Origin: Rhizobium tropici CIAT 899
GTDB lineage: Bacteria > Pseudomonadota > Alphaproteobacteria > Rhizobiales > Rhizobiaceae
Length of the DNA: 64,000 nucleotides
Reading direction: 5' to 3'
Assembly (NCBI RefSeq): GCF_000330885.1
Contig: NC_020062.1
Coordinates: 2,019,198 to 2,083,197 of the forward strand
A model generated the notes under the pieces. The model had not been told where the DNA came from. It did no database searches and saw nothing but the letters and a program-made list of their open reading frames with translations. Position numbers and translations under genes: made by a program. Numbering within the stretch: position 1 is the stretch's first letter; the number at the start of each line of letters is the position of its first letter. Positions 5,803 to 19,995 of the stretch are shown one piece after another.

Positions 5803-5827
5803 GGAACAATGACCGCCAGGCCCCGTT
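5803..5827 (+). promoter_or_regulatory. EcfG/RpoE2-type general stress promoter of ku-ligD
   Basis: GGAAC at 5803-5807, a 17-nt spacer and GTT at 5825-5827 match the alphaproteobacterial general-stress sigma consensus. The -10 lies 30 bp before the ku start codon. Confidence 0.65.
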
Positions 5828-5857
5828 TGTTTCCTGTCGTCGACATGGAGTCCGCTG

Positions 5858-6745
5858 ATGAGTGCGCGTGCGCAATGGAAAGGATATCTGAAGTTCGGGG
5901 AGGTCGGCTGCGCTGTTGCGCTCTATACGGCAGTTTCCACGTCCGAGCGGATTTCCTTTCACACGCTGAACCGCGCAACCGGCAATCGCGTCCGACGGGA
6001 ATTCATAGATGCCGCGAGCGGAAAACCGGTGTCGCGCGAGGATCAGGTCAAAGGCTACGAACTCAACAAGGACGATTACATCGTTCTTGAGCCTGAGGAA
6101 ATCGCTGCGGCGGTGCCGGAAAGCGACAAGGTCTTGCAGATAAAGGCCTTCATGGCATGCGACGACATTGATGACGTCTATTTCGACCGTCCGTATTATC
6201 TTGCCCCTTCCACTCCGGCGAGCGAAGAGGCATTCGCATTGATCCGCGACGGAATGCGCAAGAAGCAGGTCGCTGCCATTGCCCAAACCGTTCTGTTTCG
6301 CCGCCTGCGAACCGTCATGATCCGTGCCCACGGCAAAGGGCTGATCGCGACGGTATTGAATTTCGACTACGAGGTTCGCTCGGCAAAAGAAGCGTTCGAG
6401 GATGTGCCCGATATGAAAATCAAGGGCGAAATGCTCGATCTCGCCAAGCACATCATCGCCACCAAGAAAGGCAAATTCGACCCGAGCGAATTCGACGATC
6501 GCTATGAGGCAGCGCTTGGGGAGCTCGTAAAGGCCAAGATCGAGGGCAAGAAGATTCCGCAACGCAAGCCGGCAAAGGTCGCCAAGGTGACCGATCTCAT
6601 GGAGGCTCTACGCCAGAGTGCCGGCATGAGTGGCCAAGGTAAGGCAAGCGCAAAGGAACCCGCCAGGAAATCGGGCGCCGCCGCCGGCAAAGCGGCAAAA
6701 TCGCGAACGAAGTCTTCTTCGCGGCCGCAACGCAAGGCGAGCTGA
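5858..6745 (+). CDS. ku: Non-homologous end-joining protein Ku
   Basis: This 295-residue bacterial Ku starts with the conserved Trp-Lys-Gly-Tyr-Leu-Lys-Phe-Gly segment. It continues with the core beta-barrel motifs Phe-His-Thr-Leu-Asn-Arg, Val-Lys-Gly-Tyr-Glu and Tyr-Tyr-Leu-Ala-Pro. The C-terminal 50 residues are a Lys/Ala/Ser-rich basic tail, as in Ku proteins that bind DNA and recruit LigD. Ku binds double-strand ends as a ring-shaped homodimer. A GGAG site precedes the ATG by 6 nt. ligD follows after 2 bp, so the two are co-transcribed from the stress promoter at 5803-5827. Confidence 0.95.
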   Translation: MSARAQWKGYLKFGEVGCAVALYTAVSTSERISFHTLNRATGNRVRREFIDAASGKPVSREDQVKGYELNKDDYIVLEPEEIAAAVPESDKVLQIKAFMACDDIDDVYFDRPYYLAPSTPASEEAFALIRDGMRKKQVAAIAQTVLFRRLRTVMIRAHGKGLIATVLNFDYEVRSAKEAFEDVPDMKIKGEMLDLAKHIIATKKGKFDPSEFDDRYEAALGELVKAKIEGKKIPQRKPAKVAKVTDLMEALRQSAGMSGQGKASAKEPARKSGAAAGKAAKSRTKSSSRPQRKAS

Positions 6746-6747
6746 CG

Positions 6748-9324
6748 ATGGCATTGGAGACCTACAACCGCAAACGCGACTTCAGCAGGACAACCGAGCC
6801 GAGAGGACGAGCCGGCAAGAAAAAGATCGCAATATCCGGCAACAGCTACGTCATCCAGAAGCATGACGCGCGCCGGCTCCACTATGATTTTCGCCTCGAA
6901 TTGGACGGAGTTTTGAAGAGCTGGGCCGTGACCAAAGGGCCGAGCCTGATAGTCGGAGAAAAACGGCTCGCGGTGCAGACCGAAGATCACCCACTGGAGT
7001 ATGGTGATTTCGAAGGCACGATCCCCAAGGGCGAATATGGCGGCGGGACCGTCATCGTCTGGGACAAGGGCTCTTGGACGCCGCTTGGCGACCCCCATAA
7101 GGGCCTTGCAAAGGGACATCTCGAATTCGAGCTCCACGGAAAGAAACTCGGCGGCCGGTGGCATCTGATCCGCATGGCGGGAAAGCCACGCGAGAAGCGG
7201 GAAAACTGGCTGCTGATCAAAGGCGAAGACGAGGCGGCCCGCCCGGAAGGCGCTGCCGATATTCTCGAGGAACGACCGGAATCGGCAAAAACGGGGCGTA
7301 TTATAGACGAAGTCGAGAACGAAAAGCCGGGCTGGTCTTCGAAGAGCGGGAAGATCCGTCGCAGGACCAGCCGAAAGAAGGATGATGACGCCAAGGAGGA
7401 AGCCGACAAAGCCGAAACGCAAACGGATGCAACGCCCGTTGATCCCTCATCTTTGAAGGGTGCCCTCAAGGCTCCTCTGCCGTCCTTCGTCGAACCTGCT
7501 TTGGCGACATTGGTATCCAAACCACCTTCGGGCTCCCGGTGGCTTCACGAAATCAAATTCGATGGCTATCGGCTCGAGGTCCGCATCGAGGCAGGCCGCA
7601 TCAAGCTGCTGACACGCAGCGGCCTCGACTGGAGCCAGAAATTCGGCAAGGAGATTGTCAGCGCCTTCCGGGATCTCCCCGTCGGCACCGCAATCATCGA
7701 CGGCGAGCTGGTCGTTGAGCCGGCGGCCGGCGCTTCCGATTTCTCTGCCCTGCAGGCGGATCTCAGCGAAGGCCGTAGCGACCGCTTCGTCTTCTATGCT
7801 TTCGATCTCCTCTATCTGGACGGATACGACCTGAAGGCCTCGCCTCTGATCGGCCGCAAGGAATTGCTGCGGAAGATCATCCCATCCGAAACCGGGATCC
7901 TTCGCTTCAGCAGTCATTTCGATGAAAATGGCGACCTGCTGTTGTCGCATGCCTGCAGGTTGAGCCTGGAAGGGATCGTATCGAAGATTGCCAACGATCC
8001 ATATCGCCCCGGCCGCGGCAAGTCATGGGTGAAATCAAAATGTTCGTCTCGGCAGGAATTCGTGATCGGCGGCTGGGTCCCATCGACAACGTCACGAAAG
8101 GCGATCGGCTCGCTGGTGCTCGGCGTCTATCAAGACGGCAAGCTCGAACATGTCGGCCGCGTCGGTACGGGATACACGCACACTGTCGCCGAGCAGCTCT
8201 TCAAAAGGCTAACCCGCCTGCAAGTGAAGGAAAATCCTTTCGCAACCAAGCTCACCGCGGAAGAGCATCGCGGTGTCCGCTTCGTGCAGCCCGAACTGGT
8301 TGCGGAAGTCGAATTTCGCGCCTGGACGGCGGACGGCCATTTGCGCCACGCCTCCTTCCGCGGATTGCGAGAAGACAAGAACCCGCTCGAAATCGTTCGC
8401 GAAACACCGAAATCCACGAGGGAGTCCTCAGCTGAGAAGCCGGCGCGCAGCAGCGTATCCTTGACCCACGGCGATCGCCTCTATTGGCCTGACGAAGGTG
8501 TTACGAAGGCGGGGCTTGCGGATTATTATGCCGAGGTCTGGCGTTATATGGGGCCTTTCGTCGTCGGCCGGCCGCTCGCGCTGGTACGCTGTCCCAACGG
8601 GATTGCCGGTCAGCATTTTTTCCAGAAGCATGCCTGGAAGGGCATGAACCGGAACATCGCCTTGGCGAAAGATCCGCAAGACGAAGAGCCCTATGTCAGC
8701 ATCGACGACCTGAATGGCCTGATCGGCCTCGTGCAGGCAGCAGTCCTCGAAATCCATCCCTGGGGATCGATGATCGGCAACTGGGAAAAGCCCGACATGA
8801 TCATCATGGACCTCGATCCGGGCCCAGACGTCGCCTGGAGCAAAGTCATCGCCGCCGCGGAAGAAACGGCAGAACGGCTGAGGCAAACAGGGCTCGTTCC
8901 TTTCGTGAAAACTTCGGGCGGAAAAGGGCTGCACATTGTCTGCCCGCTGGTTGCCAGGGCCGAATGGCCAGCGGTCAAGGCCTTTACCAAGGGTATCGCC
9001 GACGCCATGGCCGCCGACAGCCCCGATCGTTATGTTTCCACCATCACCAAGTCGAAACGCCGCGGCAAGATCCTGATCGATTATCTGAGAAATCAACGCG
9101 GCTCGACTGCCGTCGCGCCCTACTCCACCCGCGCCCGGCCGGGCGCCGCCGTCTCGATGCCTTTATTATGGGAGGAGCTGAGCCCGGCAATAGGGCCGGA
9201 CTATTTTACCGTGCTCAATGTGCCGACGCGGCTTGCCGCGCTCCATTCGGATCCCTGGGCCGACTTCCGGAAAGCCGCCGAACCGTTGCCCCAGCCCGCC
9301 GCGAAGGCCAAGCGTAAGTTATAA
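6748..9324 (+). CDS. ligD: ATP-dependent DNA ligase D (PE-ligase-polymerase)
   Basis: The 858-residue protein has the three LigD modules in the order phosphoesterase, ligase, polymerase, as in Pseudomonas and unlike mycobacteria. The 3'-phosphoesterase motif His-Asp-Ala-Arg-Arg-Leu-His-Tyr-Asp-Phe-Arg is near residue 40. The ligase nucleotidyl motif Lys-Phe-Asp-Gly-Tyr-Arg has its Lys at about residue 270. The primase-type polymerase shows Asp-Leu-Asp at about 688-690 and Ser-Gly-Gly-Lys-Gly-Leu-His after it. It processes and seals Ku-bound ends. A Lys/Asp/Glu-rich linker (about 190-225) joins the first two modules. Confidence 0.96.
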   Translation: MALETYNRKRDFSRTTEPRGRAGKKKIAISGNSYVIQKHDARRLHYDFRLELDGVLKSWAVTKGPSLIVGEKRLAVQTEDHPLEYGDFEGTIPKGEYGGGTVIVWDKGSWTPLGDPHKGLAKGHLEFELHGKKLGGRWHLIRMAGKPREKRENWLLIKGEDEAARPEGAADILEERPESAKTGRIIDEVENEKPGWSSKSGKIRRRTSRKKDDDAKEEADKAETQTDATPVDPSSLKGALKAPLPSFVEPALATLVSKPPSGSRWLHEIKFDGYRLEVRIEAGRIKLLTRSGLDWSQKFGKEIVSAFRDLPVGTAIIDGELVVEPAAGASDFSALQADLSEGRSDRFVFYAFDLLYLDGYDLKASPLIGRKELLRKIIPSETGILRFSSHFDENGDLLLSHACRLSLEGIVSKIANDPYRPGRGKSWVKSKCSSRQEFVIGGWVPSTTSRKAIGSLVLGVYQDGKLEHVGRVGTGYTHTVAEQLFKRLTRLQVKENPFATKLTAEEHRGVRFVQPELVAEVEFRAWTADGHLRHASFRGLREDKNPLEIVRETPKSTRESSAEKPARSSVSLTHGDRLYWPDEGVTKAGLADYYAEVWRYMGPFVVGRPLALVRCPNGIAGQHFFQKHAWKGMNRNIALAKDPQDEEPYVSIDDLNGLIGLVQAAVLEIHPWGSMIGNWEKPDMIIMDLDPGPDVAWSKVIAAAEETAERLRQTGLVPFVKTSGGKGLHIVCPLVARAEWPAVKAFTKGIADAMAADSPDRYVSTITKSKRRGKILIDYLRNQRGSTAVAPYSTRARPGAAVSMPLLWEELSPAIGPDYFTVLNVPTRLAALHSDPWADFRKAAEPLPQPAAKAKRKL

Positions 9325-9363
9325 CTAACAAATCTCTTCCTGGCAGCGAAAGCCCGCAGGTGA

Positions 9364-10170
9364 CTAGCGTTTCCTTGCGCCCTTTTCCTGCGAAAGGCTC
9401 TTGCGAAGGGCATCCATAATGCTGATGACATTGCTGGGTGCTGCGGCTTCTTCCACCTTTGCTTTGGCGGGCCGCTTGCGCCCTTTCTTCTTGGCAGCGA
9501 TGATATCGAGCAGCTTTTCCTGAACTGGGTCCGAAACCATCGCCGGATCCCACGGTTTCGTTCGTTCATCTATCAGCTCGCCGACCAGCGTCATCAGCTT
9601 GCCGTCCACCGACTCTGATCCGATATTTCCAAAATAGTTCCGTTCATCGCGCACCTCGTCGCCGAAGCGCAGGGTCCAAAGGACGATCCCCCTGTCTCTA
9701 GGCTCGAGCATGACGGCACGTTCGCGGCGATACATGACGAGCCGGGATATGCCGACCATGCGGCTTGCGGCCATCGCATCGCGGATCACACAGTAGGCCT
9801 CTTCGCCAACAGCATCGTCTGGTGCCAGATAATGCGGCGTATCGAACCAGATCCATTCGATGCTGTCGCGCGGTACGAACATCTCGATATCGATCGTCCG
9901 GGTGCTTTCAAGGCCAACCGCATCGAGTTCCTCATCCTCAAGCATGACATAGTCATTTTCCCCGCGCTCATAGCCCTTCACTTCATCGTCCTCATCCACC
10001 GCCTTGCCTGTGACGGAATCGACGTATTGGCTGACGATGCGATTGCCTGTCTTTCTATTGAGTGTGTGGAAACGAACCTTTTCATTATCACTTGTCGCCG
10101 GCGCCATGGCGACAGGGCAAGTCACCAGCGACAGTTTGAGATAGCCTTTCCAGAAAGAACGCGGAGCCAT
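9364..10170 (-). CDS. ku: Second Ku protein, convergent to ligD
   Basis: A 268-residue Ku paralogue with Trp-Lys-Gly-Tyr-Leu-Lys-Leu-Ser at the N-terminus, Phe-His-Thr-Leu-Asn-Arg-Lys-Thr-Gly, Val-Lys-Gly-Tyr-Glu and His-Tyr-Leu-Ala-Pro-Asp. It ends in a basic tail rich in Lys and Arg. It is clearly diverged from the Ku at 5858, so this is not a recent duplication. It lies 39 bp from ligD, tail to tail, and has its own stress-type promoter at 10194-10219. Paired Ku genes around ligD are known in Rhizobiaceae, where Ku proteins may form heterodimers. Confidence 0.94.
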   Translation of the reverse strand: MAPRSFWKGYLKLSLVTCPVAMAPATSDNEKVRFHTLNRKTGNRIVSQYVDSVTGKAVDEDDEVKGYERGENDYVMLEDEELDAVGLESTRTIDIEMFVPRDSIEWIWFDTPHYLAPDDAVGEEAYCVIRDAMAASRMVGISRLVMYRRERAVMLEPRDRGIVLWTLRFGDEVRDERNYFGNIGSESVDGKLMTLVGELIDERTKPWDPAMVSDPVQEKLLDIIAAKKKGRKRPAKAKVEEAAAPSNVISIMDALRKSLSQEKGARKR

Positions 10171-10193
10171 GTTTTTCTCTCCAATAGGAAGGG

Positions 10194-10219
10194 AACGATC
10201 TCCGGCATTTCCTGGTTCC
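10194..10219 (-). promoter_or_regulatory. EcfG-type promoter of the second ku
   Basis: On the minus strand GGAAC (10219-10215), an 18-nt spacer and GTT (10196-10194) lie 24 bp before the ku start. The plus strand also reads GGAAC-N18-GTTCC, so the site is symmetric at its ends. Confidence 0.6.
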
Positions 10220-10246
10220 CTGGCAAGATGCTATTGCGGCCGAGAC

Positions 10247-11854
10247 TCAATGCATACCACCACCGCCGCCCTCCTTGAGATCGACATTGCTGAGGATCAA
10301 GGCGAGTGGAATGGCGCAGAGCACGATCAGCATCAACACATGGAATACATCGATATAGGCCAGGAAGCTCGCCTGGGTCTGCACTTGCTGCCCGACCCAG
10401 GCGGTCGCCTGCGCCTTCGCATCCGCCATGGTCGCTCCCTTCTCGGCAAAATAGCGTGTCATGGTTTGCAGCGCGTCGTGATAGGCGGGTGAAGATGGCG
10501 TGATATGCTCGACGAGCCGACTCTGGTGCCACCGCTCGCGATGAGCCAGCACGTTCGACGCAATGCAGACGCCGATCGAACCGCCAATATTTCGGGCGGC
10601 ATTGATCATGGCGGATGCCTGGTTGGTCTGCTCCGGTCTCAGACCGTAATAGGAAGCCGAGGTGATCGGAATGAAGATCAGCGGTAGGCCAAGTCCTATA
10701 TAGAGGCGCGACCAGACGAAGAAACTGAAGTTCAATCCCGGATAAAGCCTGGTCAATTGCCACATGGATACCGCAATGATCGCCGCACCGATCGCAATCA
10801 GATATTTCGGTTGAATCACGGAATTGACGCGTCCGGCAACGAACATCATGACCATGGTAACAAGACCGCCCGGCGATAAGGCCAGCCCCGCCCATGTTGC
10901 GGTATATCCGTAGTTCTGCTGCACGACTTCAGGAATGAACTGCGTCGTTGCGATCAGGATCGCGCCAACCGCCATCATGACGATGAAGCAGGAGCCGAAT
11001 TGCCGTGTGCCGAGCAGCCAGCCATCGATGATCGGATTGGCTTTCGTCAAAACCCATGGAATGGCAAGAAGAAGCGATAGCAGGCAGATCGACGCTGTCA
11101 GGATGATGAAGTTGGAACCGAACCAATCATCGGTTTGCCCTCGATCGAGCGTAAGCTCCAGCGAACCAAGAAATGTCGCAACCAGCAGAAAACCGACGAT
11201 GTCGAAGCGCACGCCCTTGCGCCGAAACTCCTCGCGCATCTGCTTCGTCTTCGTCGTTTCCTTGAGCAGGGCATAAACGAGGATGAAGGCGAAGACGCCG
11301 ACCGGACCGTTGATGAGAAAACACCAGTGCCAGGAAAGATTATCCGAGAGATAGCCGCCCAGGGTCGGGCCGATGACCGGCGCGACGACCACGGCGACGC
11401 CGAAAAGCGCAAAAGCCTGCCCGCGCTTTGCCGGCGGGAAGGCATCCGCCAGGATCGCCTGCGAGGTCGGCACCATGCCGCCGCCGGCAAAGCCCTGGAT
11501 CATCCGAAAGATCAGCAACGTCTCGAGATTCCAGGACAACCCGCACAGGATGGAAGCGATGGTAAAGGTTGCGAGGCACAGAAGATAAAAACGTCGGCGG
11601 CCGAACCGTTCAGCAAAGTAACTGCTGGCAACGAGCACAATGGCATTCGAGACGAGATACGTCGTCACCACCCAGGAAGCTTCATCGGAACTGACGGCAA
11701 GGCCGCCGGAAATGTAGCGCAACGCCACGTTGGCGATCGTGGTATCCAGCACCTCCATGAAGGTCGCAAGCGACACGACGATGGCGATGAGCCAGGGATT
11801 CGTCGCGCGCTCGGATGAGGTCGCACCTCCGTTTGCCGTGGCCGCGCCGCTCAT
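10247..11854 (-). CDS. emrB: EmrB/QacA-type MFS efflux pump (DHA2, 14 TM)
   Basis: About 535 residues from the ATG at 11852-11854, chosen because it lies 1 bp after the stop of the adaptor gene. Motif C-type sequence Asp-Thr-Thr-Ile-Ala-Asn-Val-Ala near TM1 and Trp-Val-Val-Thr-Thr-Tyr-Leu in TM2 are typical of DHA2 drug:proton antiporters, and about 14 hydrophobic segments fit. It would form a tripartite pump with the adjacent EmrA-like adaptor and an outer-membrane channel encoded elsewhere. The N-terminal 20 residues are Ala/Gly/Thr-rich and cytosolic. Confidence 0.9.
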   Translation of the reverse strand: MSGAATANGGATSSERATNPWLIAIVVSLATFMEVLDTTIANVALRYISGGLAVSSDEASWVVTTYLVSNAIVLVASSYFAERFGRRRFYLLCLATFTIASILCGLSWNLETLLIFRMIQGFAGGGMVPTSQAILADAFPPAKRGQAFALFGVAVVVAPVIGPTLGGYLSDNLSWHWCFLINGPVGVFAFILVYALLKETTKTKQMREEFRRKGVRFDIVGFLLVATFLGSLELTLDRGQTDDWFGSNFIILTASICLLSLLLAIPWVLTKANPIIDGWLLGTRQFGSCFIVMMAVGAILIATTQFIPEVVQQNYGYTATWAGLALSPGGLVTMVMMFVAGRVNSVIQPKYLIAIGAAIIAVSMWQLTRLYPGLNFSFFVWSRLYIGLGLPLIFIPITSASYYGLRPEQTNQASAMINAARNIGGSIGVCIASNVLAHRERWHQSRLVEHITPSSPAYHDALQTMTRYFAEKGATMADAKAQATAWVGQQVQTQASFLAYIDVFHVLMLIVLCAIPLALILSNVDLKEGGGGGMH

Positions 11855-11855
11855 C

Positions 11856-13001
11856 TCAGTTCCTCGGCCGGACCGTGACCGTCGGCACGACGGACATGCC
11901 GGGGCCGATGGGGAGATCGGCGGGCCATTGGTCAACGACGATCTTGACGGGTACACGCTGCGTGACCTTCACATAGTTGCCGGTCGCGTTTTCCGCCGGC
12001 AGGAGTGAAAAGGCGGTGCCGGAGCCTGGCTGGACGGAGGCCACCTTGCCATGCAGCGTATGATCCGGATAGGCGTCGATCGTCACATCCACCGGCTGAT
12101 CCGGACGCATGTCGGTCAGCTGCGTTTCCTTGAAATTCGCAGTAATCCAGATCTCATCCGGGACGAAAGTTGCGATCGCCTGGCCGGCGTCGATGAACTG
12201 GCCCTTTGCGCCGGTGAGACGGACGACGCGGCCGGGCTGCGCAGCGGTTATCGTCGTATAGCTGAGATTTTGCTGGGCTTCTTCGGCCTGCGCTTGCGCC
12301 TGCTTGAGGCTTGCCAGCGCGCTCGATTTCTGCGCCTCAGCCGCGGCCTTGTTCTTCAAGGCGGAAGTCACGTTTGCCTGCATCTGGGCAAGGCTTGCCT
12401 GATCCTGCTGCAAGGTGGACGCCGCCTGCTGTACCGCCTGCACGCTGCCCGATCCGGATTTGACCAGCTGCTGCTGGCGACTGGCCTCCTGCTGCGCATA
12501 TTGCAGGGCCGCGTTGGCCGAGTTCAGCTGCGCCTTTGCCACATCGACGGAGGCGACAGCCGCCTCGATCTGCGCACTCGCGCTCTCGACAGAGGCCTCA
12601 GCGGCCTCTATCTGCGCGTTTGCCTGGTCAAGCGCGATCTGGTAATCCCGCGGCTCGATCCGCAGGATGACATCGCCGGCCTTGACATGCTGGTTGTCGG
12701 TCACCGGCACGTCGGAAACATAGCCGGAGACCTTGGCGGCAACGGAGAAATTGCGAGCACCGACGAAGGCATCGTCCGTCGTCTCGTAGGGATAGAAATA
12801 CACCTTCCATGCGAACCATCCGGCGGCGATGAGAACCACCAGAGCCACAACACCGAGCAGGATCCAGAAGGGATGACGGCGAAGGAAGGAAGGCCGCTTT
12901 GCTTCCTGCCGGGCCTCTTTCTGACGTTCGATTTCATCTGAAACCTGCTGTGTCGGCCGGTCCGGCCTGGTTTCCATGTTTGTAGATTGATTGTCAGCCA
13001 T
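11856..13001 (-). CDS. emrA: EmrA/HlyD-family membrane fusion adaptor
   Basis: About 381 residues from the ATG at 12999-13001, preceded by AAAGG; a longer TTG start at 13049 lacks a good ribosome-binding site. A basic cytosolic N-terminus and one TM segment (about 35-60) come first. Next are the first half of a lipoyl domain (Thr-Asp-Asp-Ala-Phe-Val-Gly-Ala), a long Ala/Gln-rich coiled coil (about 110-230) and a beta-barrel with Thr-Ala-Asn-Phe-Lys-Glu-Thr-Gln. It bridges the EmrB-like pump to the outer membrane. UdgX ends 65 bp upstream on the same strand, so read-through from udgX is possible. Confidence 0.9.
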   Translation of the reverse strand: MADNQSTNMETRPDRPTQQVSDEIERQKEARQEAKRPSFLRRHPFWILLGVVALVVLIAAGWFAWKVYFYPYETTDDAFVGARNFSVAAKVSGYVSDVPVTDNQHVKAGDVILRIEPRDYQIALDQANAQIEAAEASVESASAQIEAAVASVDVAKAQLNSANAALQYAQQEASRQQQLVKSGSGSVQAVQQAASTLQQDQASLAQMQANVTSALKNKAAAEAQKSSALASLKQAQAQAEEAQQNLSYTTITAAQPGRVVRLTGAKGQFIDAGQAIATFVPDEIWITANFKETQLTDMRPDQPVDVTIDAYPDHTLHGKVASVQPGSGTAFSLLPAENATGNYVKVTQRVPVKIVVDQWPADLPIGPGMSVVPTVTVRPRN

Positions 13002-13066
13002 GACATGACCTTTGCTTTTGTCCTGCTCAATCTGACGTCGGCGGTTCAATGAAGAGGTGGTCAGCG

Positions 13067-13711
13067 CTATAGAAAGCGCGCGATCTCTTTCAGATCCTGG
13101 ATGAAGGCGGCCCGGTTTCTTTCTCTCTCGTCAGCCTCCCTGATCCGCAACAGCGCCGAGGGATGGATGGTCACGAGAACATCGAGCTTTGCGGACGAAT
13201 GCAGGATATGTCCGCGATCGCGCATGACCTTCACCTTCGTCCCCAGCAGGGAGGATACGGCAGTAGCGCCGAGGGCGACGACCAGTTTTGGCTGCAGCAG
13301 CTCAAGTTCCGCGCCTAGCCACCAGGCGCAACGTTGTATCTCTCCGGCATTCGGCCGAGCGTGCAGACGCTTCTTGCCGCGCATCTGATATTTGAAATGC
13401 TTGACGGCGTTGGTGACATAGCAGCGATCGCGATCGACGCCTGCCTCATCAAGGCATTGATCCAGCAGCCGGCCTGCAGGCCCCACGAAAGGTCGAGCGG
13501 CCTGATCCTCCTTATCGCCGGGTTGCTCACCGACGAGAACGATTTCAGCGCTGCGAGGCCCCTCGCCGAATACAAGATGAGTGGCGTTGCGATAGAGGTC
13601 GCAGCGTTGGCATGATTGCGCATCGTCGTGCAGCTCGTCGAGTGTCTCTGCGTCTGCATGTTCATACGCTAAGGAAGGGCCTGCGCCGGCCGAAGCAAAT
13701 CTCTCGAGCAT
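13067..13711 (-). CDS. udgX: UdgX-type uracil-DNA glycosylase (family 4-like, Fe-S)
   Basis: The 214-residue protein has Gly-Glu-Gln-Pro-Gly-Asp-Lys-Glu-Asp-Gln at 61-70, the UDG motif 1 in its UdgX form. It has Asn-Ala-Val-Lys-His-Phe-Lys near 101-107 and the inserted loop Lys-Lys-Arg-Leu-His at 113-117. That loop matches the Lys-Arg-Arg-Ile-His loop by which Mycobacterium UdgX links its His covalently to the abasic site (established knowledge). Cysteines at 34, 37, 97 and 128 can hold the 4Fe-4S cluster. The C-terminal His-Pro-Ser-Ala motif is present. No strong Shine-Dalgarno sequence precedes the ATG. Confidence 0.87.
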   Translation of the reverse strand: MLERFASAGAGPSLAYEHADAETLDELHDDAQSCQRCDLYRNATHLVFGEGPRSAEIVLVGEQPGDKEDQAARPFVGPAGRLLDQCLDEAGVDRDRCYVTNAVKHFKYQMRGKKRLHARPNAGEIQRCAWWLGAELELLQPKLVVALGATAVSSLLGTKVKVMRDRGHILHSSAKLDVLVTIHPSALLRIREADERERNRAAFIQDLKEIARFL

Positions 13712-13796
13712 TGGGGGCTCGCAATGGTTCCAGATTCTTCAACGATCAACTAATCGCCCTTCTGTTTGTTCCATCGCTGCGACCCTGACCCTGCGG

Positions 13797-13821
13797 GGAA
13801 CCCACGCAACCGGCATTCGTT
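13797..13821 (+). promoter_or_regulatory. EcfG-type promoter of the YflT-like stress gene
   Basis: GGAAC at 13797-13801, a 17-nt spacer and GTT at 13819-13821, 34 bp before the ATG of the next gene. Confidence 0.65.
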
Positions 13822-13855
13822 ACATCGATAGGAACATCCAAAAGGAGAAATCCTC

Positions 13856-14209
13856 ATGAGCAGTCAAAGCAAACCCGAGTCCCTCACACTCAGTGCATTC
13901 TTCGCTGACGAATATGATGCGGAAGCTGCGGCTCAGGAACTGATGGATGCCGGCATTCCGAAGGATGCAATTACCATGACGCCCGGCAATCGGCCTGACA
14001 CAACGCCAATCGATCATATGGGCTTTCTCGACGCGTTGACGGGTATCTTCTTTCATGAAGAACAGCGCACAGCCTATGCGGCGGCGCTGGAACAGGGAGG
14101 AATGCTGGTCACTGTCCAGGAGTTGGACGAGGCGCAACACAATATCGCCCTGCCCATCCTGGCGGAGAAGGGCCAGATCGAGATCAACGAACGGGAAGGC
14201 GGGCGCTGA
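13856..14209 (+). CDS. YflT/GSP17M-like general stress protein
   Basis: A 117-residue soluble acidic protein. It starts with a beta strand followed by Asp-Ala-Glu-Ala-Ala-Ala-Gln-Glu-Leu-Met-Asp-Ala-Gly-Ile and then Ala-Ile-Thr-Met-Thr. This is the strand-helix-strand pattern of the heat-induced stress protein YflT / general stress 17M domain. The molecular function of the family is unknown. A strong AAAGGAG site precedes the ATG. The stress promoter 34 bp upstream agrees with the family name. Family assignment rests on the pattern only. Confidence 0.65.
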   Translation: MSSQSKPESLTLSAFFADEYDAEAAAQELMDAGIPKDAITMTPGNRPDTTPIDHMGFLDALTGIFFHEEQRTAYAAALEQGGMLVTVQELDEAQHNIALPILAEKGQIEINEREGGR

Positions 14210-14241
14210 GGCAGGTCTCCGCTCTTGGCAATCACGTGCAA

Positions 14242-14438
14242 TCAGTTTGGCGGGTGGCCCGACCTATGCTGATCACTGCGAATCTTCTGCGCATCCGTGA
14301 AGCCATGCGCCCATTCATCGCGCCGTTGATCGCCCTGTGGAAACGGATTGTTGTCGCTGCACGCCCGTTCGCAAAGGCCCTTCTGCCGAGCTCATAGGCA
14401 TCGTCTTCGGAGTTCCTATCGTCGCTCCCGGTTTTCAT
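14242..14438 (-). pseudogene. Ribosome modulation factor (Rmf/CrpP)-like gene, frameshifted
   Basis: From the ATG at 14436-14438 the first half reads Asp-Asp-Ala-Tyr-Glu-Leu-Gly-Arg-Arg-Ala-Phe-Ala-Asn-Gly-Arg-Ala-Ala-Thr. In another frame the second half reads Asn-Pro-Phe-Pro-Gln-Gly-Asp-Gln-Arg-Arg-Asp-Glu-Trp-Ala-His-Gly-Phe and stops at 14242-14244. Together they match the Rmf-like pattern of small stationary-phase ribosome-binding proteins (GxxA...NPF...RxxWxxGF). The frame changes inside a short CAACAA run near 14345-14352, so the span is not a multiple of three. It starts 2 bp after the DUF982 stop. This is a real frameshift, a slippage site or a sequencing error. Confidence 0.65.
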
Positions 14439-14440
14439 GG

Positions 14441-14710
14441 CTATACCTGCTCCAACACAAGGCGTGCATCGAGGCAGGCGGTCACGAAAGCAGCTCTTGA
14501 TGCCTCGATGGGAACCCTGTGCAAAACGGCTGCTGCGCATTTTGCCTTCGCATTGATGTAAGCTGAGCTTCTTTCACAGGGCCATCCTCGTGACAGGAAA
14601 TGAATTGCCTCTTCGGGCCCCCGGATCATCTGATCGTCTCGACCACGGGCTGCAAGGCGGACCGGCTTGGTCCAAAGCGTCGTGAATTCCACGTCAATGA
14701 CATCGTACAT
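14441..14710 (-). CDS. DUF982 family protein
   Basis: An 89-residue protein from the ATG at 14708-14710, preceded by GGGAGGA at suitable spacing. It has the DUF982 pattern common in rhizobia: Trp-x-x-Pro-Val near the N-terminus, a Gly-Pro-Glu-Glu-Ala-Ile-His-Phe-Leu helix, Trp-Pro, and Ala-Lys-Cys-Ala-Ala-Ala-Val. Ala-Phe-Val-Thr-Ala-Cys-x-Asp-Ala closes it. The function is unknown. It is followed within 2 bp by the Rmf-like gene and preceded by a stress-type promoter, which suggests a role in growth arrest (inference). Confidence 0.8.
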   Translation of the reverse strand: MYDVIDVEFTTLWTKPVRLAARGRDDQMIRGPEEAIHFLSRGWPCERSSAYINAKAKCAAAVLHRVPIEASRAAFVTACLDARLVLEQV

Positions 14711-14768
14711 CCCATCCTCCCATCTCCTGCCTCTCATTCATCTGGATGGCCGCCTCCCCTTTCGATCG

Positions 14769-14793
14769 AACACTGGATATTGGCATTTGTTCC
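14769..14793 (-). promoter_or_regulatory. EcfG-type promoter of DUF982-rmf-like
   Basis: Minus strand: GGAAC (14793-14789), a 17-nt spacer, GTT (14771-14769), 58 bp before the DUF982 start codon. Confidence 0.6.
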
Positions 14794-14940
14794 TCAAATC
14801 CTCCGATACAGAGCGGCCTTGCAGAGGTCTCCACATCGGGTCAGGAACCTCCGTCTGACGGGCATATGCGGGGACAGATGGAAACCCACACAAAGCCCGA
14901 GGTCTCGTGGTGGAGGCAGGATTGGGGGATAATAAGATCG

Positions 14941-15444
14941 TCAATGACCCTCTTCGCCGAGGCGCGCCGCCAATTGCTGGCGAGCACGGTTGATCCGGCT
15001 TTTCACCGTGCCGATCGCACAACCGAATCTTTCCGCGGCAGCATCATAGGACCGCCCTTCGATGACAACGTATTGAAGCACCGAGCGATAATGTTCCGGC
15101 AACAGATTGCATGCCTCCTCAAGCTCTTTCGCCCGAATGGTCCATTCCTGTGATGGCTGCGCTACTCCATCGCCGGAAACGCATTTGTTGGCGCCGGGAG
15201 CTTCGCGCCTGTTGATACGAAATTTGGTGCAGAAGGTATTGCGCATGATCGTGAACAGCCAAGATTTCAGCCTGGTGCCGCGATCGAATTGGTCGAGATT
15301 GGCCAGCGCTTTCGTCAAGGTTTCCTGGACCAGATCATCCGCGTCGTTGGCATTTCTGTGAAAGCTACGCGCAAAGGCGCGAAGAGCCGGAATAAGCTCA
15401 ACGATTTCATTTTGCAGACCGGCCGTTCGGTACATATCGCTCAC
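14941..15444 (-). CDS. ECF RNA polymerase sigma factor (ECF15/EcfG-like)
   Basis: About 167 residues from a GTG at 15442-15444, chosen because GAGGAG lies 7 nt upstream; an ATG at 15435 is too far from it. Region 2 shows Leu-Arg-Ala-Phe-Ala-Arg-Ser-Phe, Ala-Asp-Asp-Leu-Val-Gln-Glu-Thr-Leu and Leu-Lys-Ser-Trp-Leu-Phe-Thr-Ile-Met-Arg-Asn. Region 4 has Leu-Pro-Glu-His-Tyr-Arg and Ala-Ile-Gly-Thr-Val-Lys-Ser-Arg. These match ECF15, the general-stress sigma group of alphaproteobacteria. No nepR or phyR gene lies beside it, so it is likely a paralogue controlled from elsewhere. A two-way GGAAC promoter lies 225 bp upstream. Confidence 0.85.
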   Translation of the reverse strand: MSDMYRTAGLQNEIVELIPALRAFARSFHRNANDADDLVQETLTKALANLDQFDRGTRLKSWLFTIMRNTFCTKFRINRREAPGANKCVSGDGVAQPSQEWTIRAKELEEACNLLPEHYRSVLQYVVIEGRSYDAAAERFGCAIGTVKSRINRARQQLAARLGEEGH

Positions 15445-15911
15445 AAGCCTTCTCCTCGGGAAGTAGCGCAAGCGGTATCCGGCGGCATTGGATCGCAATG
15501 CCGGGACTCGGCTTCTGCCGAGGCGCAACGCGCGTCAGCACACCCAGGAGTCGTTAGAACAAACGACCTGATGAGTTGTGCAGATTTGCTGCTCGCTATG
15601 CGCGGTGATGCATATCAGGATGCTTCGGAGCGTTCTTCCTACTCGGGATGCTCCTGGCATCTTTCAAGGGAACGGTTGCATCCGGAGCTTGTTCCAAGAG
15701 AATCCAAATAATTGCAGTCTATCGAAACAGGACGACAGGAAGGAAGCGAAATCGCTCTATTCCGACTATCGCTCGATCGGTCCTACGGCTTGTCTCCGGC
15801 ATTCGAGTAGGTACACCCGATCCGCTCCCAACGGACGAAAAATCCAAAAATCCGGAAACAATGGTGCGGTTTCCGAGTTTGAAGGCAGCAAAGCCAAAAG
15901 AGGAAATACCA
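15445..15911. other. 467-bp region between sigma factor and secreted-protein gene
   Basis: No convincing gene. It holds a perfect 6-bp stem with a TTCT loop at 15507-15522 in the sigma leader, and the symmetric GGAAC/GTTCC promoter at 15669-15693. The 220-nt stretch between that promoter and the secreted-protein ATG is an untranslated leader if the promoter is used. Confidence 0.5.
15669..15693 (+). promoter_or_regulatory. Two-way EcfG-type promoter
   Basis: GGAAC at 15669-15673, a 17-nt spacer and GTT at 15691-15693. The next two bases make GTTCC, so the minus strand also reads GGAAC-N17-GTT, toward the sigma gene. It could drive both the secreted-protein gene and sigma autoregulation. Confidence 0.55.
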
Positions 15912-16238
15912 ATGTTGACAAGAATGATCGCGGTATGTGCCCTTTCGATCGGCATGGCCACGGCAGCCATGGCGCAGCAATCGGGCTCCGGCGCAGCCGG
16001 CACCGGTAGTTCAGGCAGCGGTAACGGTGCCGGAACCAATTCGCAGAACGGAGCTACTCCCAGCGGAAATGGAGGTACCGGCAACAATACGACGGGAACC
16101 AATGGCACCCCAAATTCCAATGGTCAATCACAGGATTGCAATGCCATGAAGACTGGTAAGAATACTACGCGAGGTACGGATACTCAAAGCAGCGGCCAGT
16201 CGAGCGACAGCACATCACGCAGCAATTGCCCGCAGTGA
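15912..16238 (+). CDS. Small secreted Gly/Ser/Asn/Thr-rich protein
   Basis: A 108-residue protein from the ATG at 15912, with AGGAAA upstream. A signal peptide of about 21 residues ends in Ala-Met-Ala-Gln. The mature part is almost wholly Gly, Ser, Asn and Thr, with short Gly-Ser-Gly and Gly-Asn-Gly units, and has two Cys (about residues 76 and 106) that could pair. It is probably periplasmic or extracellular and unstructured. No family is recognised. The upstream stress promoter suggests induction in stress. Confidence 0.65.
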   Translation: MLTRMIAVCALSIGMATAAMAQQSGSGAAGTGSSGSGNGAGTNSQNGATPSGNGGTGNNTTGTNGTPNSNGQSQDCNAMKTGKNTTRGTDTQSSGQSSDSTSRSNCPQ

Positions 16239-16292
16239 CAGCAGCTGATGGATACGACAATGCCATCTGAATTTCACGCCCCCCCTTCGTTG

Positions 16293-16318
16293 CCGGTATC
16301 CACAATGTGGATTGCCGG
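16293..16318. repeat. Inverted repeat between two small genes
   Basis: ATCCAC/GTGGAT arms with an AAT loop (16298-16312), flanked on both sides by CCGG. There is no T-tract after it. It could be a terminator for the secreted-protein gene, an operator or an RNA processing site. Confidence 0.45.
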
Positions 16319-16348
16319 CGACAGGCGACTCATTCGAGGAGCAGAATC

Positions 16349-16558
16349 ATGATGAACAGTGCTCAGGAGCTGGCCGAAGAATATCTGAGGCTTGGCGGCA
16401 GAAGACTGCTTGTAATGGATGACAATATCCTATCAACAAATAGTTGGGAGGCCGATCCTCTCGAAGCGGAAACCTTCTGGAATAGGGAAATAGAGAGTCT
16501 GCCGCCTAAGCGGCGCAGCGAAGTCATGTCATTCCTGCCTTCCATCAACGTCACCTGA
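16349..16558 (+). CDS. Small hypothetical protein
   Basis: A 69-residue protein from the ATG at 16349 (a second ATG follows at once), with GAGGAG 7 nt upstream. It is acidic and helical, with Ala-Glu-Glu-Tyr-Leu-Arg and two Trp residues spaced about 15 apart. No domain is recognised. It lies between the secreted-protein gene and the DUF72 gene on the same strand, 68 bp before the latter, so it may share their transcript. Confidence 0.6.
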   Translation: MMNSAQELAEEYLRLGGRRLLVMDDNILSTNSWEADPLEAETFWNREIESLPPKRRSEVMSFLPSINVT

Positions 16559-16626
16559 GACGACAGGACGTTGGACGTCGGCAACGTCCCGCATGAACGC
16601 AATCCGATGCAAGCGCAATAGATAAC

Positions 16627-17592
16627 ATGAAAAGAACTGGAACCATCCGTATCGGTATTTCAGGTTGGACTTACGCTCCGTGGCGCGGTGTTTTCTATCC
16701 GAAGAACGTGCCGCAGAAAAGGGAGCTCGCCTACGCGTCCTCACAGTTTCCATCCATCGAAATCAATGGCACTTTCTATAGCCTTCAAACCCCCGAGACT
16801 TTTGCCAGGTGGCGGGATGCGACACCGGATGATTTCGTCTTCGCAGTCAAGGGATCCCGCTACATAACCCATCTACGCAGGCTCCGGGAGGTCGAGGTGC
16901 CGCTTGCCAACTTCATGGCGTCCGGCGTGCTGCGGCTGGGAGCAAAACTCGGCCCGATCCTCTGGCAATTCCCTCCGCGACTGCGCTTTGACCCGGTACT
17001 ATTCTCCACCTTCATGGAGATGCTGCCGAAAGATACCGATGACGCTGCTCATCTGGCCAGGCGGCACGACGAGCGAGTGAACGGCCGCGAATGGCTGCGG
17101 GCAGAAGAAAAAAGACCGCTCCGCCATGCCTTCGAAATCCGCAACGAGAGCTTCGTGGACCCCGACTTCATCGAACTCTTACGGAAACATAAGATCGGGC
17201 TCGTCTGCGCAGATACCGTGGAATGGCCTTTGCTCATGGATGTCACCGCAGACTTCGTCTATTGCCGCCTGCATGGCTCGGAGGAGCTATATGTCAGCGG
17301 ATATGACGACGAGGCTCTGAAGGTCTGGGCGGAACGGATCGACGATTGGGCGCACGGGCGCGAGCCGACCAAGGCCAACCGCGTCCTGGAGCCGCTGAAA
17401 CAACCACAGCGTGGCCGCGACGTCTATGTCTATTTCGACAATGATGTGAAGGTACGGGCGCCGGCCGACGCACAACGACTGAGCCAGCGTCTTGGACTAA
17501 CCCCGCAAAAGGAGAGTGTAGCCCGTACGAAGCACCTGCGGCGGCATCGGCGGGAAATCCCAAAGTCTCGACCGCAACATCGGCCAGCATAA
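16627..17592 (+). CDS. DUF72 (YecE-like) TIM-barrel protein
   Basis: A 321-residue protein with DUF72 hallmarks: Gly-Ile-Ser-Gly-Trp-Thr-Tyr at the N-terminus, Phe-x-Ser-Ile-Glu-Ile-Asn-Gly-Thr-Phe-Tyr near residue 45, Phe-Ala-Val-Lys-Gly-Ser-Arg near 78 and Leu-Trp-Gln-Phe-Pro-Pro near 118. His-Ala-Phe-Glu-Ile-Arg-Asn and Tyr-Cys-Arg-Leu-His-Gly follow. The fold is a TIM barrel; the activity is unknown. The basic C-terminal tail (last 25 residues, Arg/His-rich) is longer than in most members. Confidence 0.85.
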   Translation: MKRTGTIRIGISGWTYAPWRGVFYPKNVPQKRELAYASSQFPSIEINGTFYSLQTPETFARWRDATPDDFVFAVKGSRYITHLRRLREVEVPLANFMASGVLRLGAKLGPILWQFPPRLRFDPVLFSTFMEMLPKDTDDAAHLARRHDERVNGREWLRAEEKRPLRHAFEIRNESFVDPDFIELLRKHKIGLVCADTVEWPLLMDVTADFVYCRLHGSEELYVSGYDDEALKVWAERIDDWAHGREPTKANRVLEPLKQPQRGRDVYVYFDNDVKVRAPADAQRLSQRLGLTPQKESVARTKHLRRHRREIPKSRPQHRPA

Positions 17593-17602
17593 TCAACTCA
17601 GC

Positions 17603-17872
17603 TCATTCGAGCTGACCCCATGCCGGGTTCCAATTCACGCCTTCCGACAATTCGACGTAAATGGGCCGCATGATTTCACCGGACATTTTGTTGCGGGCTG
17701 CCCGGAAAGCATCATCGGGCTCCATCTCCTCACCTGGAAAGATGGTGTCATCCTCTCCGGGCGGCGTGACCTTGCGCAGGAATCCGCGGATCTGATCGCC
17801 AGAATGGTAGAACTTGACGACGATAGAACCCGGCGGCACCGCGTTCTCGCGATATCGATGATAGATTTCCAT
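17603..17872 (-). CDS. Hypothetical 89-residue protein
   Basis: Starts at the ATG 17870-17872 with GGGAGG 6 nt upstream, a strong site. The sequence is soluble and acidic, with Pro-Pro-Gly-Ser-Ile-Val-Val-Lys-Phe-Tyr and a Trp-Asn-Pro-Ala-Trp end. No family is recognised. A stress-type promoter lies about 106 bp upstream (17978-18002), so it belongs to the putative stress regulon. It converges with the DUF72 gene 10 bp away. Confidence 0.65.
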   Translation of the reverse strand: MEIYHRYRENAVPPGSIVVKFYHSGDQIRGFLRKVTPPGEDDTIFPGEEMEPDDAFRAARNKMSGEIMRPIYVELSEGVNWNPAWGQLE

Positions 17873-18201
17873 CTTACACCTCCCAACCTCGGGGGCCTCT
17901 CAGGCGGGGTGCGCCTTGCCGTTACAAGAGGACCATGCATTTCGTCCGGCCGCGGCCGGCCGAATCGTACCAATCCAAACCGCCCTCCTCCGCTTTGGTT
18001 CCCACATGGGAATTAAGCCGCGGGCCAAGGTGGCCGAGCGGGGCAATTGGGCGCAAAGAAATCGTCAGCGCAATTCAGCGTACGGCGCGTTCAGTGGTCT
18101 GATCATAGGCATTTTTAGGTAGCAGCAGCAGATATGCTTGATCTGACAGCGGTTGCCCGCTAGGTTGCCGCCGCAATCAAACGCAAAGATATGGGGATAT
18201 C
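17873..18201. other. 329-bp divergent region between hypothetical gene and csp
   Basis: It holds the stress-type promoter at 17978-18002 and a 14-bp GC palindrome (CCGGCCGCGGCCGG, 17946-17959) in the leader of the minus-strand gene. The remaining 200 bp are the csp upstream region; no gene was seen. Confidence 0.5.
17978..18002 (-). promoter_or_regulatory. EcfG-type promoter of the 89-residue protein gene
   Basis: Minus strand: GGAAC (18002-17998), a 17-nt spacer, GTT (17980-17978). Confidence 0.55.
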
Positions 18202-18405
18202 ATGCCAACTGGCACGGTTAAGTTTTTCAATACAGACAAGGGCTTCGGCTTCATTACGCCGGAAAGTGGAGGACCTGACGTTTTCGTTCATGTCTCCGCC
18301 CTGCAATACGGCAACGTGCTTCGGGAGGGACAGTCCGTTTCCTACGATCTCGGTCAGGATCGGAAGACAGGCAAGACAAAGGCGGAAAACGTCAGACCGC
18401 TCTGA
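18202..18405 (+). CDS. Cold-shock-domain protein, CspA family
   Basis: A 67-residue single cold-shock domain. RNP1 (Lys-Gly-Phe-Gly-Phe-Ile) is at residues 13-18 and RNP2 (Val-Phe-Val-His-Val-Ser) at about 27-32. It binds single-stranded RNA/DNA and melts RNA structure. The length is typical. GGGGATATC precedes the ATG. No GGAAC promoter was seen before it. Confidence 0.95.
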
Positions 18406-18527
18406 CGGTTATAAATATGTCACTACCCGACATTTCGGGTAGTGCACTCGGCCGCTATGGGGCGCCTGCCGACGTTTCGCCTGAACCATCGTCAGCCGAA
18501 ACGGCCATTTGCGTCGTCCGATGGTTC

Positions 18528-19826
18528 CTACATAAATGCGGTCACGGCCATGCCGATCACGGCGACGAACATGATTGCGCAGGCGATCCAGCCAAGCGCT
18601 TTCAACCCGCCGCGGATGACGAACTGTTTCATGACGTCGCGATTGGTGGCGATCAGCATCAGAATCACCATAACTGGAACCGCGACGACACCATTGATGA
18701 CGGCACTCCAGAACAGGGCCTTCATCGGCGGGATGGGCGTAAAGTTCAACAGCATGCCCACCACCGTCGCCAAGCCCACCGTCGTATAGAAAGCCTTCGC
18801 TTCGCCCGGCTCGCGCGACAGCCCGACCTTCCACCGAGCCGCCTCCCCGACAGCATATGCAGCCGAGCCTGCGAGAACAGGAACAGCCAGAAGGCCTGTT
18901 CCGATAATCCCTGTGGCAAAAATGACCTTGGCAAATTGTCCGGCCAGCGGCTCGATCGCCTTCGCTGCATCGACGGAACTCTCGATGCTTGTCGCACCGG
19001 CCTTGTTAAGCGTAGCCGCCGTCGTCATGATGATCGCGAGCGCGACGATGTTGGATGCCGCCATGCCGATGAGGGTGTCCAGCGTGATGCGAGTGTCCGC
19101 CCTTTTTGCTTCCTGAGGGTGTTTGACAAGCGGTTCCTGCCGCGGCTTCTCCTTCAGATCTTCGGCCTCCTGGGACGCCTGCCAGAAAAACAGATAGGGG
19201 CTGATCGTCGTTCCGAAAATTGCGACGATCATCGACCAATAGTTCGGATCGGTCTTGAAGGTCGGCAGCAGCAGTCCGCGGGTGAAAGCCGACCAATCGA
19301 TATGCACCACGAACAGGGTCGCGATGTAGGATAAAAGCGCCAGGCTCAGCCATTTCAGGACTGCAACGTAACGCTTGTATTTGAGAAGGACCTGCAGAAG
19401 AATGCAAATGATGCCGAAGGCGGCGACGTAAATCAGCGAATTGCCGCTCAGCAGCAAATGTGCGGCATCTCCCATCGCACCGAGATCGGCGCCGAGATTG
19501 ATGACATTGGCGATCAGGAGCGGAAAAGTGATGCTTATCCCCACCCAGCGAGGATAACACTTCGCCATGCTGCCCGCCAAACCTCGTCCCGTGGTCCGGC
19601 CGATGTGCGCGCTGATCATCTGCACGGCAGCCATCAGCGGATAGGTCAGGAGCAGGGTCCAACTCGCGATATACCCGAATTGCGCTCCGGCCTGCGAATA
19701 GGTCGCGATCCCGCTCGGGTCGTCGTCCGAGGCGCCGGTGACCAGGCCCGGCCCCAGGATTTCAAAAATTCTCGGCTTTGACGGCTCGACGACCTCACTT
19801 TTGTCATCCATCTGATAGTCGCTCAT
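18528..19826 (-). CDS. Nramp-related divalent metal transporter with non-canonical metal site
   Basis: About 432 residues from the ATG at 19824-19826, with GGGAGG upstream. Eleven or so hydrophobic segments and the TM1 Asp36-Pro-Ser-Gly39 identify the Nramp superfamily. Canonical Nramp has Asp-Pro-Gly-Asn in TM1 and Met-Pro-His in TM6. Here the TM6 segment is Thr206-Thr-Ile-Ser-Pro-Tyr211, so the Met ligand and the His are absent. This resembles Nramp-related Mg transporters or a separate clade, so Mn/Fe should not be assumed. A stress-type promoter lies 57 bp upstream. The 5' end is repeated twice more at 19996-20348 and 21184-21536. Confidence 0.85.
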   Translation of the reverse strand: MSDYQMDDKSEVVEPSKPRIFEILGPGLVTGASDDDPSGIATYSQAGAQFGYIASWTLLLTYPLMAAVQMISAHIGRTTGRGLAGSMAKCYPRWVGISITFPLLIANVINLGADLGAMGDAAHLLLSGNSLIYVAAFGIICILLQVLLKYKRYVAVLKWLSLALLSYIATLFVVHIDWSAFTRGLLLPTFKTDPNYWSMIVAIFGTTISPYLFFWQASQEAEDLKEKPRQEPLVKHPQEAKRADTRITLDTLIGMAASNIVALAIIMTTAATLNKAGATSIESSVDAAKAIEPLAGQFAKVIFATGIIGTGLLAVPVLAGSAAYAVGEAARWKVGLSREPGEAKAFYTTVGLATVVGMLLNFTPIPPMKALFWSAVINGVVAVPVMVILMLIATNRDVMKQFVIRGGLKALGWIACAIMFVAVIGMAVTAFM

Positions 19827-19995
19827 GACTGCCTCCCAGCAGAAACCGGCACAGCGCATCATCGTGCCTTCCGGTGCGAGTGAACCGCACTTGCAGGCGT
19901 TTTGTTCCCGAGAAGCAGATTGTCGGAATGGAACCCGCCCGAGCTTAGGGCGTGGCTGGCAAGGAGTAAAAACGCTTTCACTTCAGAGCGATGAC
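19643..19995. repeat. 353-bp repeat, copy 1 (native nramp 5' end and leader)
   Basis: It starts at AGGTCAGGAGCAGG inside nramp and ends at GATGAC. It is followed directly by copy 2 and appears again as copy 3. It covers the first 61 codons of nramp, its promoter and the leader toward the phosphatase gene. Confidence 0.95.
19883..19908 (-). promoter_or_regulatory. EcfG-type promoter of nramp
   Basis: Minus strand: GGAAC (19908-19904), an 18-nt spacer, GTT (19885-19883). It is also present in the repeat copies, at 20236-20261 and 21424-21449. Confidence 0.55.

Follow-up and report, generated by a model that had tools for sequence, protein, structure and literature searches.

An accessory EcfG-type sigma factor amid promoter-like sites and end-joining genes on a megaplasmid of Rhizobium tropici CIAT 899

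The window analyzed here, 64,000 nucleotides of Rhizobium tropici CIAT 899, is the terminal part (C4:2019198-2083197) of a 2,083,197-bp contig, C4 (NC_020062.1), in a genome of 6,686,334 bp and four contigs. C4 is distinct from the 3.84-Mb contig C1, in agreement with the plasmid-borne location given in an initial annotation of this DNA. Between 5.8 and 19.9 kb of the window lies an island in which the gene for an accessory sigma factor of the EcfG/ECF15 type (ECF, extracytoplasmic function) is accompanied by eight distinct promoter-like sites of the form GGAAC-N17/18-GTT, each oriented towards a gene start. The initial annotation had noticed a grouping of such sites around an ECF15-like sigma gene. 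This observation is confirmed as real and beyond chance, while its interpretation as a mobile stress regulon is partly supported. Unless a contig is named, coordinates refer to the window, and the class of a site is given by the base before its GTT together with that GTT.

The two Ku genes of the genome both sit in the island. ku1 (5858..6745, +; TIGR02772, 286 bits, cut-off 150) is followed by ligD (6748..9324, +), where profile matches cover all three domains (phosphoesterase, ligase and primase-polymerase), and ku2 lies on the opposite strand (9364..10170, -; TIGR02772, 295 bits). The ku1-ligD site (5803..5827, +; CGTT), which has equivalents in three related loci (L142, L143 and L144), stands 31 bp before ku1. 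The ku2 site (10194..10219, -; spacer N18, CGTT) stands 24 bp before its gene and is palindromic with a match on the other strand (10192-10217, +). Further along, the gene for a udgX-family uracil-DNA binding protein (13067..13711, -; TIGR03914, 288.7 bits, cut-off 189.95) is preceded at 37 bp by an AGTT site (13748..13772, -), also AGTT in Rhizobium sp. CCGE531, and the gene for a 117-residue protein (13856..14209, +) is preceded at 35 bp by a CGTT site (13797..13821, +). The label YflT-like proposed for the latter protein finds no support, no Pfam family matching it above cut-off. A DUF982 protein (14441..14737, -; PF06169, 49.8 bits) has a TGTT site 32 bp before its start (14769..14793, -), which is GGTT in L142, L143 and L144. 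The ribosome hibernation function suggested for the adjoining rmf-like sequence (14232..14440, -; limits approximate) is not supported either, since by eye this sequence continues in another frame, i.e. is broken, while the gene of CCGE531 (L142) is intact (PF04957, 30.4 bits, cut-off 27.9).

The sigma gene (14941..15447, -) codes for 168 residues from a conserved start, within a frame that is open up to 15528. Its GGAAC-N17-GTT site (15671..15695, -; CGTT) lies ~220 bp upstream and overlaps a motif match on the other strand (15669..15693, +), the divergent half of a palindrome, pointing towards the gene of a small secreted-looking protein that is rich in Gly, Ser and Asn by sequence and has no Pfam match (15912..16238, +). 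Thus two of the sites (10192/10194, spanning 10192-10219, and 15669/15671, spanning 15669-15695) can be read on both strands; the palindrome at the sigma gene is found in several relatives as well (L143, L144, L145 and L149). An 89-residue protein without Pfam match, conserved in L142 (17603..17872, -), has a GGTT site 106 bp upstream (17978..18002, -), and the gene of the Nramp-type metal transporter (18528..19862, -; PF01566, 276 bits) has a GGTT site with spacer N18 at 21 bp (19883..19908, -). The identities assigned initially to the nonhomologous end joining (NHEJ), uracil-binding and Nramp genes are borne out by these profile matches. The Nramp start and promoter are part of a 300-bp direct repeat at the right edge of the island, present in three copies in window 19632-21472 (97-100% identical, spacing 353 and 1188), so that copies of the site occur at 20236-20261 and 21424-21449. 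A 213-residue phosphatase-like frame is present twice in identical form (20344-20985 and 21532-22173). The description of the island as mobile finds no support in its GC content (0.578 vs 0.594, z -1.09) or in the typing of 12 related plasmid records, 11 of them non-mobilizable and one (BG4 pRPC2) conjugative; neither integrases nor boundaries were the object of a dedicated search.

On the two strands of the window there are 15 matches to GGAAC-N16-18-GTT, where 100 shuffles gave a mean of 3.51 and none reached 15; the earlier estimate of about four chance matches was right. The seven sites named at that time are all present and oriented towards the stated genes, and the udgX site, which had been overlooked, makes the eighth. 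None had been seen between genes after 20 kb, yet three matches lie there: the two repeat copies of the Nramp promoter (20236 and 21424, -) and one at 51865. A further match (55926) is within a called gene, and one inside the Nramp gene (19189) is taken as chance. Compared with the EcfG pattern GGAAC-N16-17-CGTT, four of the eight island sites have the full CGTT and four have another base before GTT; the published consensus is GGAAC-N16-CGTT (PMC3892343).

On the whole of C4, spacer 17 yields 67 matches, 37 of them intergenic, and spacer 18 shows a weak excess (36 matches, 15 intergenic), as compared with 32-48 matches and 1-11 intergenic ones for each of ten control spacers between 12 and 23. 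"Intergenic" was set by a home-made gene caller, which missed some small genes. With palindromes merged, C4 holds 48 intergenic sites, of which 8 fall inside one 14.2-kb stretch; this stretch, the densest on the replicon, is the island, and its density was equalled in 1 of 5000 random placements. These 8 sites include the two Nramp repeat copies, while the original Nramp site stands outside the 48, the gene caller having placed the gene across it. The island is the larger of two site clusters on C4. The second, C4:1921068-1924154, has 8 matches (6 distinct sites) in ~3 kb, and by eye its genes resemble those of PEBP, MgtC and BON proteins. Over the entire genome, N17 gives 66 CGTT and 112 DGTT matches and the N14 control 54 and 94; the excess across the genome is thus small. 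Eleven of the N17 matches form a run beside an ecfG-like gene at C1:2412844. Three non-C N17 matches, two of them a palindromic pair, are clustered at C1:3659620-3660307, distant from the ecfG-like genes of the genome.

The sigma protein matches Sigma70_r2 (57.1 bits), PhyR_sigma2 (49.9 bits) and Sigma70_r4_2 (48.9 bits), with PF04542, PF08281 and PF22029 above cut-off, and does not reach the NCBIfam equivalog cut-offs (PRK12546, 151.7 vs 270). Its best PDB match by sequence is 5uxx, which we take to be a Bartonella sigma-NepR complex. A tree of 64 rows sets the 59 ECF15-type rows apart from five other ECF factors of the genome with a support of 99. Profiles, PDB sequence match and tree agree with the ECF15-like assignment made initially. 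The genome holds three such factors: the canonical one at C1:2753807, the window gene, and that at C1:2412844, which is 55% identical to the window factor. The sole NepR match of the genome (C1:2754326-2754427) adjoins the canonical gene, and in this genome-wide search for NepR the window gene has no adjacent match.

We use "accessory" for loci without a NepR tblastn match at E<=0.01. The canonical rows of the tree group at 99 together with one locus labelled accessory, L225, and L232 may belong with them too, which slightly dilutes the contrast between the two kinds. The window factor and EcfG2 of Rhizobium etli fall in a group of 20 rows with weak support (88 in the Shimodaira-Hasegawa-like approximate likelihood ratio test), nested within a group at 80. 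By sequence, the window protein is an accessory EcfG/ECF15 factor related to the plasmid-borne R. etli EcfG2. It has the plasmid location of the non-canonical EcfG2 subgroup (Jans et al. 2013, PMC3892343); the other accessory member of the genome sits on C1, so this trait is not universal.

Rhizobium sp. CCGE531 keeps most of the synteny of the island and strains 11515TR and AB2/73 keep part of it, with sites before most of the same genes; for ku1, ku2, udgX, DUF982 and the 117-residue gene, they are found in one to three relatives each. This recurrence at orthologous genes, the sigma gene included, supports the initial interpretation. An alignment of the region upstream of the sigma gene (window and nine relatives) contains few conserved blocks, among them the -35 box and CGTT, the latter in all 10 sequences. 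The idea that the sigma gene is preceded by a conserved leader or a short open reading frame was dropped, as little is conserved besides the promoter and the start region.

A broader set comprised 80 loci from genomes, which belong to the top 80 of 558 sigma relatives, and 12 plasmid loci, hand-picked among 60 listed of 1279 records. Nineteen accessory-sigma loci, that of the window among them, contain ku, and 37 of their 37 ku matches have a same-strand N17 or N18 site within 300 bp upstream, compared with 0, 0, 0, 0, 1, 0 and 0 of 37 for seven control-spacer pairs. Sites also precede udgX (8/11), DUF982 (4/8) and nramp (5/8) in accessory loci, where three of the five nramp positives come from the window, namely the gene itself and the two truncated copies in the repeats, which tblastn with the window Nramp matches as well. 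The absence of a site before ligD (0/20) fits its second position in an operon. Ku is linked to 18 of 92 accessory loci (18 of 89 without near-duplicates) vs none of 25 canonical loci, and in a sample of 61 genomes from the family it lies within 20 kb of 4 of 16 accessory loci, the window island being one of the four, against 0.12 expected. Ku and LigD are thus recurrent cargo of accessory sigma loci.

The two kinds of locus differ in the base before GTT. At 11 canonical loci of the family, 82% of the 60 N17 sites have C in this position; at 92 accessory loci the share is 26% (593 sites), and G is the most frequent base (38%). The accessory value remains 26% (of 572 sites) when one member of each near-duplicate pair (L147/L148, L169/L235 and L174/L176) is removed, and 14 other NepR-bearing loci have 11 N17 sites, 55% of them with C. 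After related sigma factors were collapsed, canonical factors (8 or 13 clusters) had a mean C fraction of 0.72-0.76 and accessory ones (43 or 53 clusters) a mean of 0.23-0.25, with p values of 2e-5 and 9e-8. In R. tropici itself, the canonical locus has three N17 sites, each with CGTT (C1:2754672, 2755577 and 2756881). As C is not preferred at the intergenic sites of C4 outside the clusters either, the difference between canonical and accessory loci may owe as much to canonical-locus promoters being of high quality as to a shift in the accessory factors. Residue 59 of the window sigma, which presumably lies in loop L3, corresponds to Asn in all 26 canonical rows (the canonical locus of R. tropici being counted twice among these 26) and mixed in accessory rows. 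Loop L3 of ECF factors reads one flipped base of the -10 element (PMC8103513). The fraction of sites with C is 78% for the canonical Asn and, across accessory loci, 36% for N, 47% for K, 25% for R, 21% for S, 22% for A, 7% for P and 3% for Q. There is some trend and no clean switch, and residue 59 was rejected as the full determinant of the -10 base.

We consider it likely that the island represents a local regulon for general stress on a rhizobial megaplasmid, centered on the accessory EcfG-type factor and without a NepR or PhyR of its own. In the established pathway of the general stress response (GSR), stress releases canonical EcfG from NepR; the sigma gene would be drawn into this pathway, as canonical EcfG could start it through its CGTT promoter. 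An EcfG-type holoenzyme would then start transcription at the eight GGAAC-N17/18-GTT promoters under stress, switching on the two Ku proteins, LigD, the uracil-DNA binding protein, the Nramp transporter, several small proteins and the sigma gene itself. For the cell, the gain would be DNA end joining and metal uptake along with a uracil-DNA binding protein. The sites, their positions, the recurrence of most of them in relatives and the gene families are observed; we infer that the sites are active and are read by both the chromosomal canonical EcfG and the accessory sigma. With less assurance, the accessory factors of this group may also dispense with the C of the -10 CGTT.

Several observations weigh against a regulon organized around the accessory factor. 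No relative of the window sigma gene is located near the second cluster on C4 (L118), and the copy of the 89-residue gene in CCGE531 has no exact equivalent of its site within 300 bp. Sites are also found at Ku genes away from such factors: of eight Ku loci on plasmids, chosen from a spread listing and with no window-sigma relative within ~10 kb, five bear a site, which is placed directly before Ku in S. meliloti, R. phaseoli, R. ruizarguesonis and M. ciceri and before the small gene preceding Ku in Paracoccus; the loci of Bradyrhizobium 41S5, Cupriavidus and Streptomyces have none before Ku. Control of Ku by EcfG is therefore general, and was already known; the recurrent part is the linkage to an accessory sigma.

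Site density seemed at first to favour the accessory loci. The 78 of the 92 loci without a NepR match contain 3.25 N17 sites per 10 kb (control spacers, 0.27), and the 14 with one, mostly from Bradyrhizobium, contain 0.40 (control spacers, 0.21). When the comparison was made within the same family, with 14 accessory loci and 10 of 12 planned canonical ones, this contrast vanished, the canonical loci having 2.85 sites per 10 kb and the accessory loci 2.15. We thus rejected the idea that promoter clustering is special to accessory ecfG genes. Site clusters belong to both kinds of ecfG gene, and clustering is no sign of control by the accessory sigma. Published data also weigh against the regulon reading. 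In the R. etli ecfG2 mutant, 1 of 19 lowered units has the EcfG1 motif (PMC3892343), and overexpression of RpoE5, the second ECF15 factor of S. meliloti, raised one putative target (PMC6180224). Two other accessory plasmid loci with dense sites appear to be further stress islands of the same kind: L150 (Rhizobium sp. BG4 pRPC2), with many response regulators and with ferritin-like and PRC-barrel genes, and L153 (Mesorhizobium sp. B2-1-8), with divalent metal transporter, CsbD and ferritin-like genes.

The core GSR might suffice to explain the island, a possibility that we hold to be real though somewhat doubtful. Chromosomal canonical EcfG would then read all eight sites and the local sigma would be a target that adds little. 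The canonical CGTT in half of the island promoters agrees with this, as do the intergenic sites of C4 outside both clusters, which have no preference for C (12/33; control spacers, 22/62). The RpoE5 result is also in keeping with it, and Caulobacter SigU has been proposed to give mild amplification only (PMC4814048). Against it, the sites around accessory sigma genes as a group are short of the canonical C, also after collapsing and deduplication, and in R. etli EcfG1 and EcfG2 each favour their own promoter, with 11 regulated genes in common (PMC3892343).

We regard as unlikely a two-tier switch, in which canonical EcfG would turn on the accessory sigma through CGTT and the accessory sigma would turn on the non-C cargo (udgX with AGTT, DUF982 with TGTT, and the 89-residue and Nramp genes with GGTT). 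In its favour, the R. tropici group conserves CGTT before the sigma gene, and nine Neorhizobium-type loci (L156, L158-L162, L164, L184 and L234) have an N18 sigma promoter with CGTT in 9 of 9 cases; ku is present in seven of these loci, where 13 of its 14 promoters lack the C. Across accessory loci, C is found at 30 of 55 promoters of the sigma genes and at 198 of 755 other sites of the same loci (Fisher p 3e-5). However, this difference is not significant once relatives are collapsed (sign tests, p 0.82 for collapsing at 75% identity and p 0.23 for 85%), ku1, ku2 and the 13856 gene of the island are CGTT as well, and ecfG2 expression was merely halved in the R. etli ecfG1 mutant (PMC3892343). 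The two-tier switch thus fits two lineages and, in this weakened form, is not a general rule. That the sites are chance matches or operators of another factor is highly improbable: two of the eight are palindromic, and palindromes make up 37 of 298 forward N17 matches in accessory loci vs 10 of 207 for nine control spacers, but the excess on the replicon is spacer-specific, the sites recur before orthologous genes, and they are set before annotated starts in R. etli (10/12, within 250 bp on the same strand) and BG4 (14/21), less so in Mesorhizobium B2-1-8 (4/9).

The island sigma is a member of the accessory EcfG regulators, a class already known. About half of the completed alphaproteobacterial genomes have at least two ecfG genes, and the role of the extra copies is described as unclear (PMC3892343). 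The promoter pattern of non-canonical EcfG factors was "yet to be determined" according to a 2021 review (PMC8103513). A literature search covering titles and the openings of abstracts, without supplements, returned no account of the island or of a non-C EcfG2 motif. The comparison of the base before GTT between canonical and accessory loci is new from this work, and it supplies a concrete promoter candidate for a non-canonical EcfG in the neighbourhood of the gene itself, namely GGAAC-N17-GTT without the canonical C. A more speculative reading, which we hold to be less likely than not, is that in the Rhizobiales accessory EcfG factors recognize a -10 element of their own, in which GTT lacks the C preferred by canonical EcfG. 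If so, an accessory gene and its cargo would make up a second circuit for stress, insulated in part from the core and loadable with NHEJ-type genes; this would also explain the motif-less targets of R. etli EcfG2, the single CGTT unit among 19, and the preference of EcfG1 and EcfG2 for their own promoters.

Among known systems, Sphingopyxis granuli TFA has two paralogues, EcfG1 and EcfG2, arranged in a hierarchy and, as here, ku-ligD in the regulon (PMC7083833). Unlike here, both of its factors are located at the nepR-phyR locus and apparently have common targets (PMC7083833, PMC8103513). S. meliloti RpoE2 resembles the island in its EcfG-type promoters and in the induction of NHEJ (cited in PMC12844678), but it is a canonical factor with NepR and PhyR homologues (PMC6180224). 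The Ku pair on pSymB of S. meliloti carries a site too (N18), as do the island Ku genes, but the surrounding 10 kb are free of window-sigma relatives. Within the R. tropici genome, C1:2412829-2425187 (L124, L127) likewise places an accessory-type sigma beside a run of N17 sites (11 matches at 10 places, 10 of the 11 without C before GTT). In contrast to the island, this locus is chromosomal and has no Ku, its neighbours by eye being short-chain dehydrogenase, trehalose-synthase-like and ferritin-like genes.

The closest likeness is to EcfG2 of R. etli CFN42 (PF00052, plasmid p42f), also a plasmid-borne ECF15-type factor without adjacent nepR or phyR (PMC3892343), with 52.6% identity to the window sigma over 93%. 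The surroundings of ecfG2 on p42f (L151, 39721-70182) are site-rich like the island, with 12 GGAAC-N17-GTT sites in 30 kb, and C precedes GTT in one of these 12 as compared with four of eight in the island. The cargo differs, consisting of ferritin-like, P450 and DUF4142 genes with no annotated Ku within 15 kb. The EcfG2 regulon is reported to differ from that of EcfG1 and to have yielded no motif among its targets (Jans et al. 2013, PMC3892343). Ten of the 12 sites near R. etli ecfG2 have the correct placement before a start and are thus test cases for the candidate promoter.

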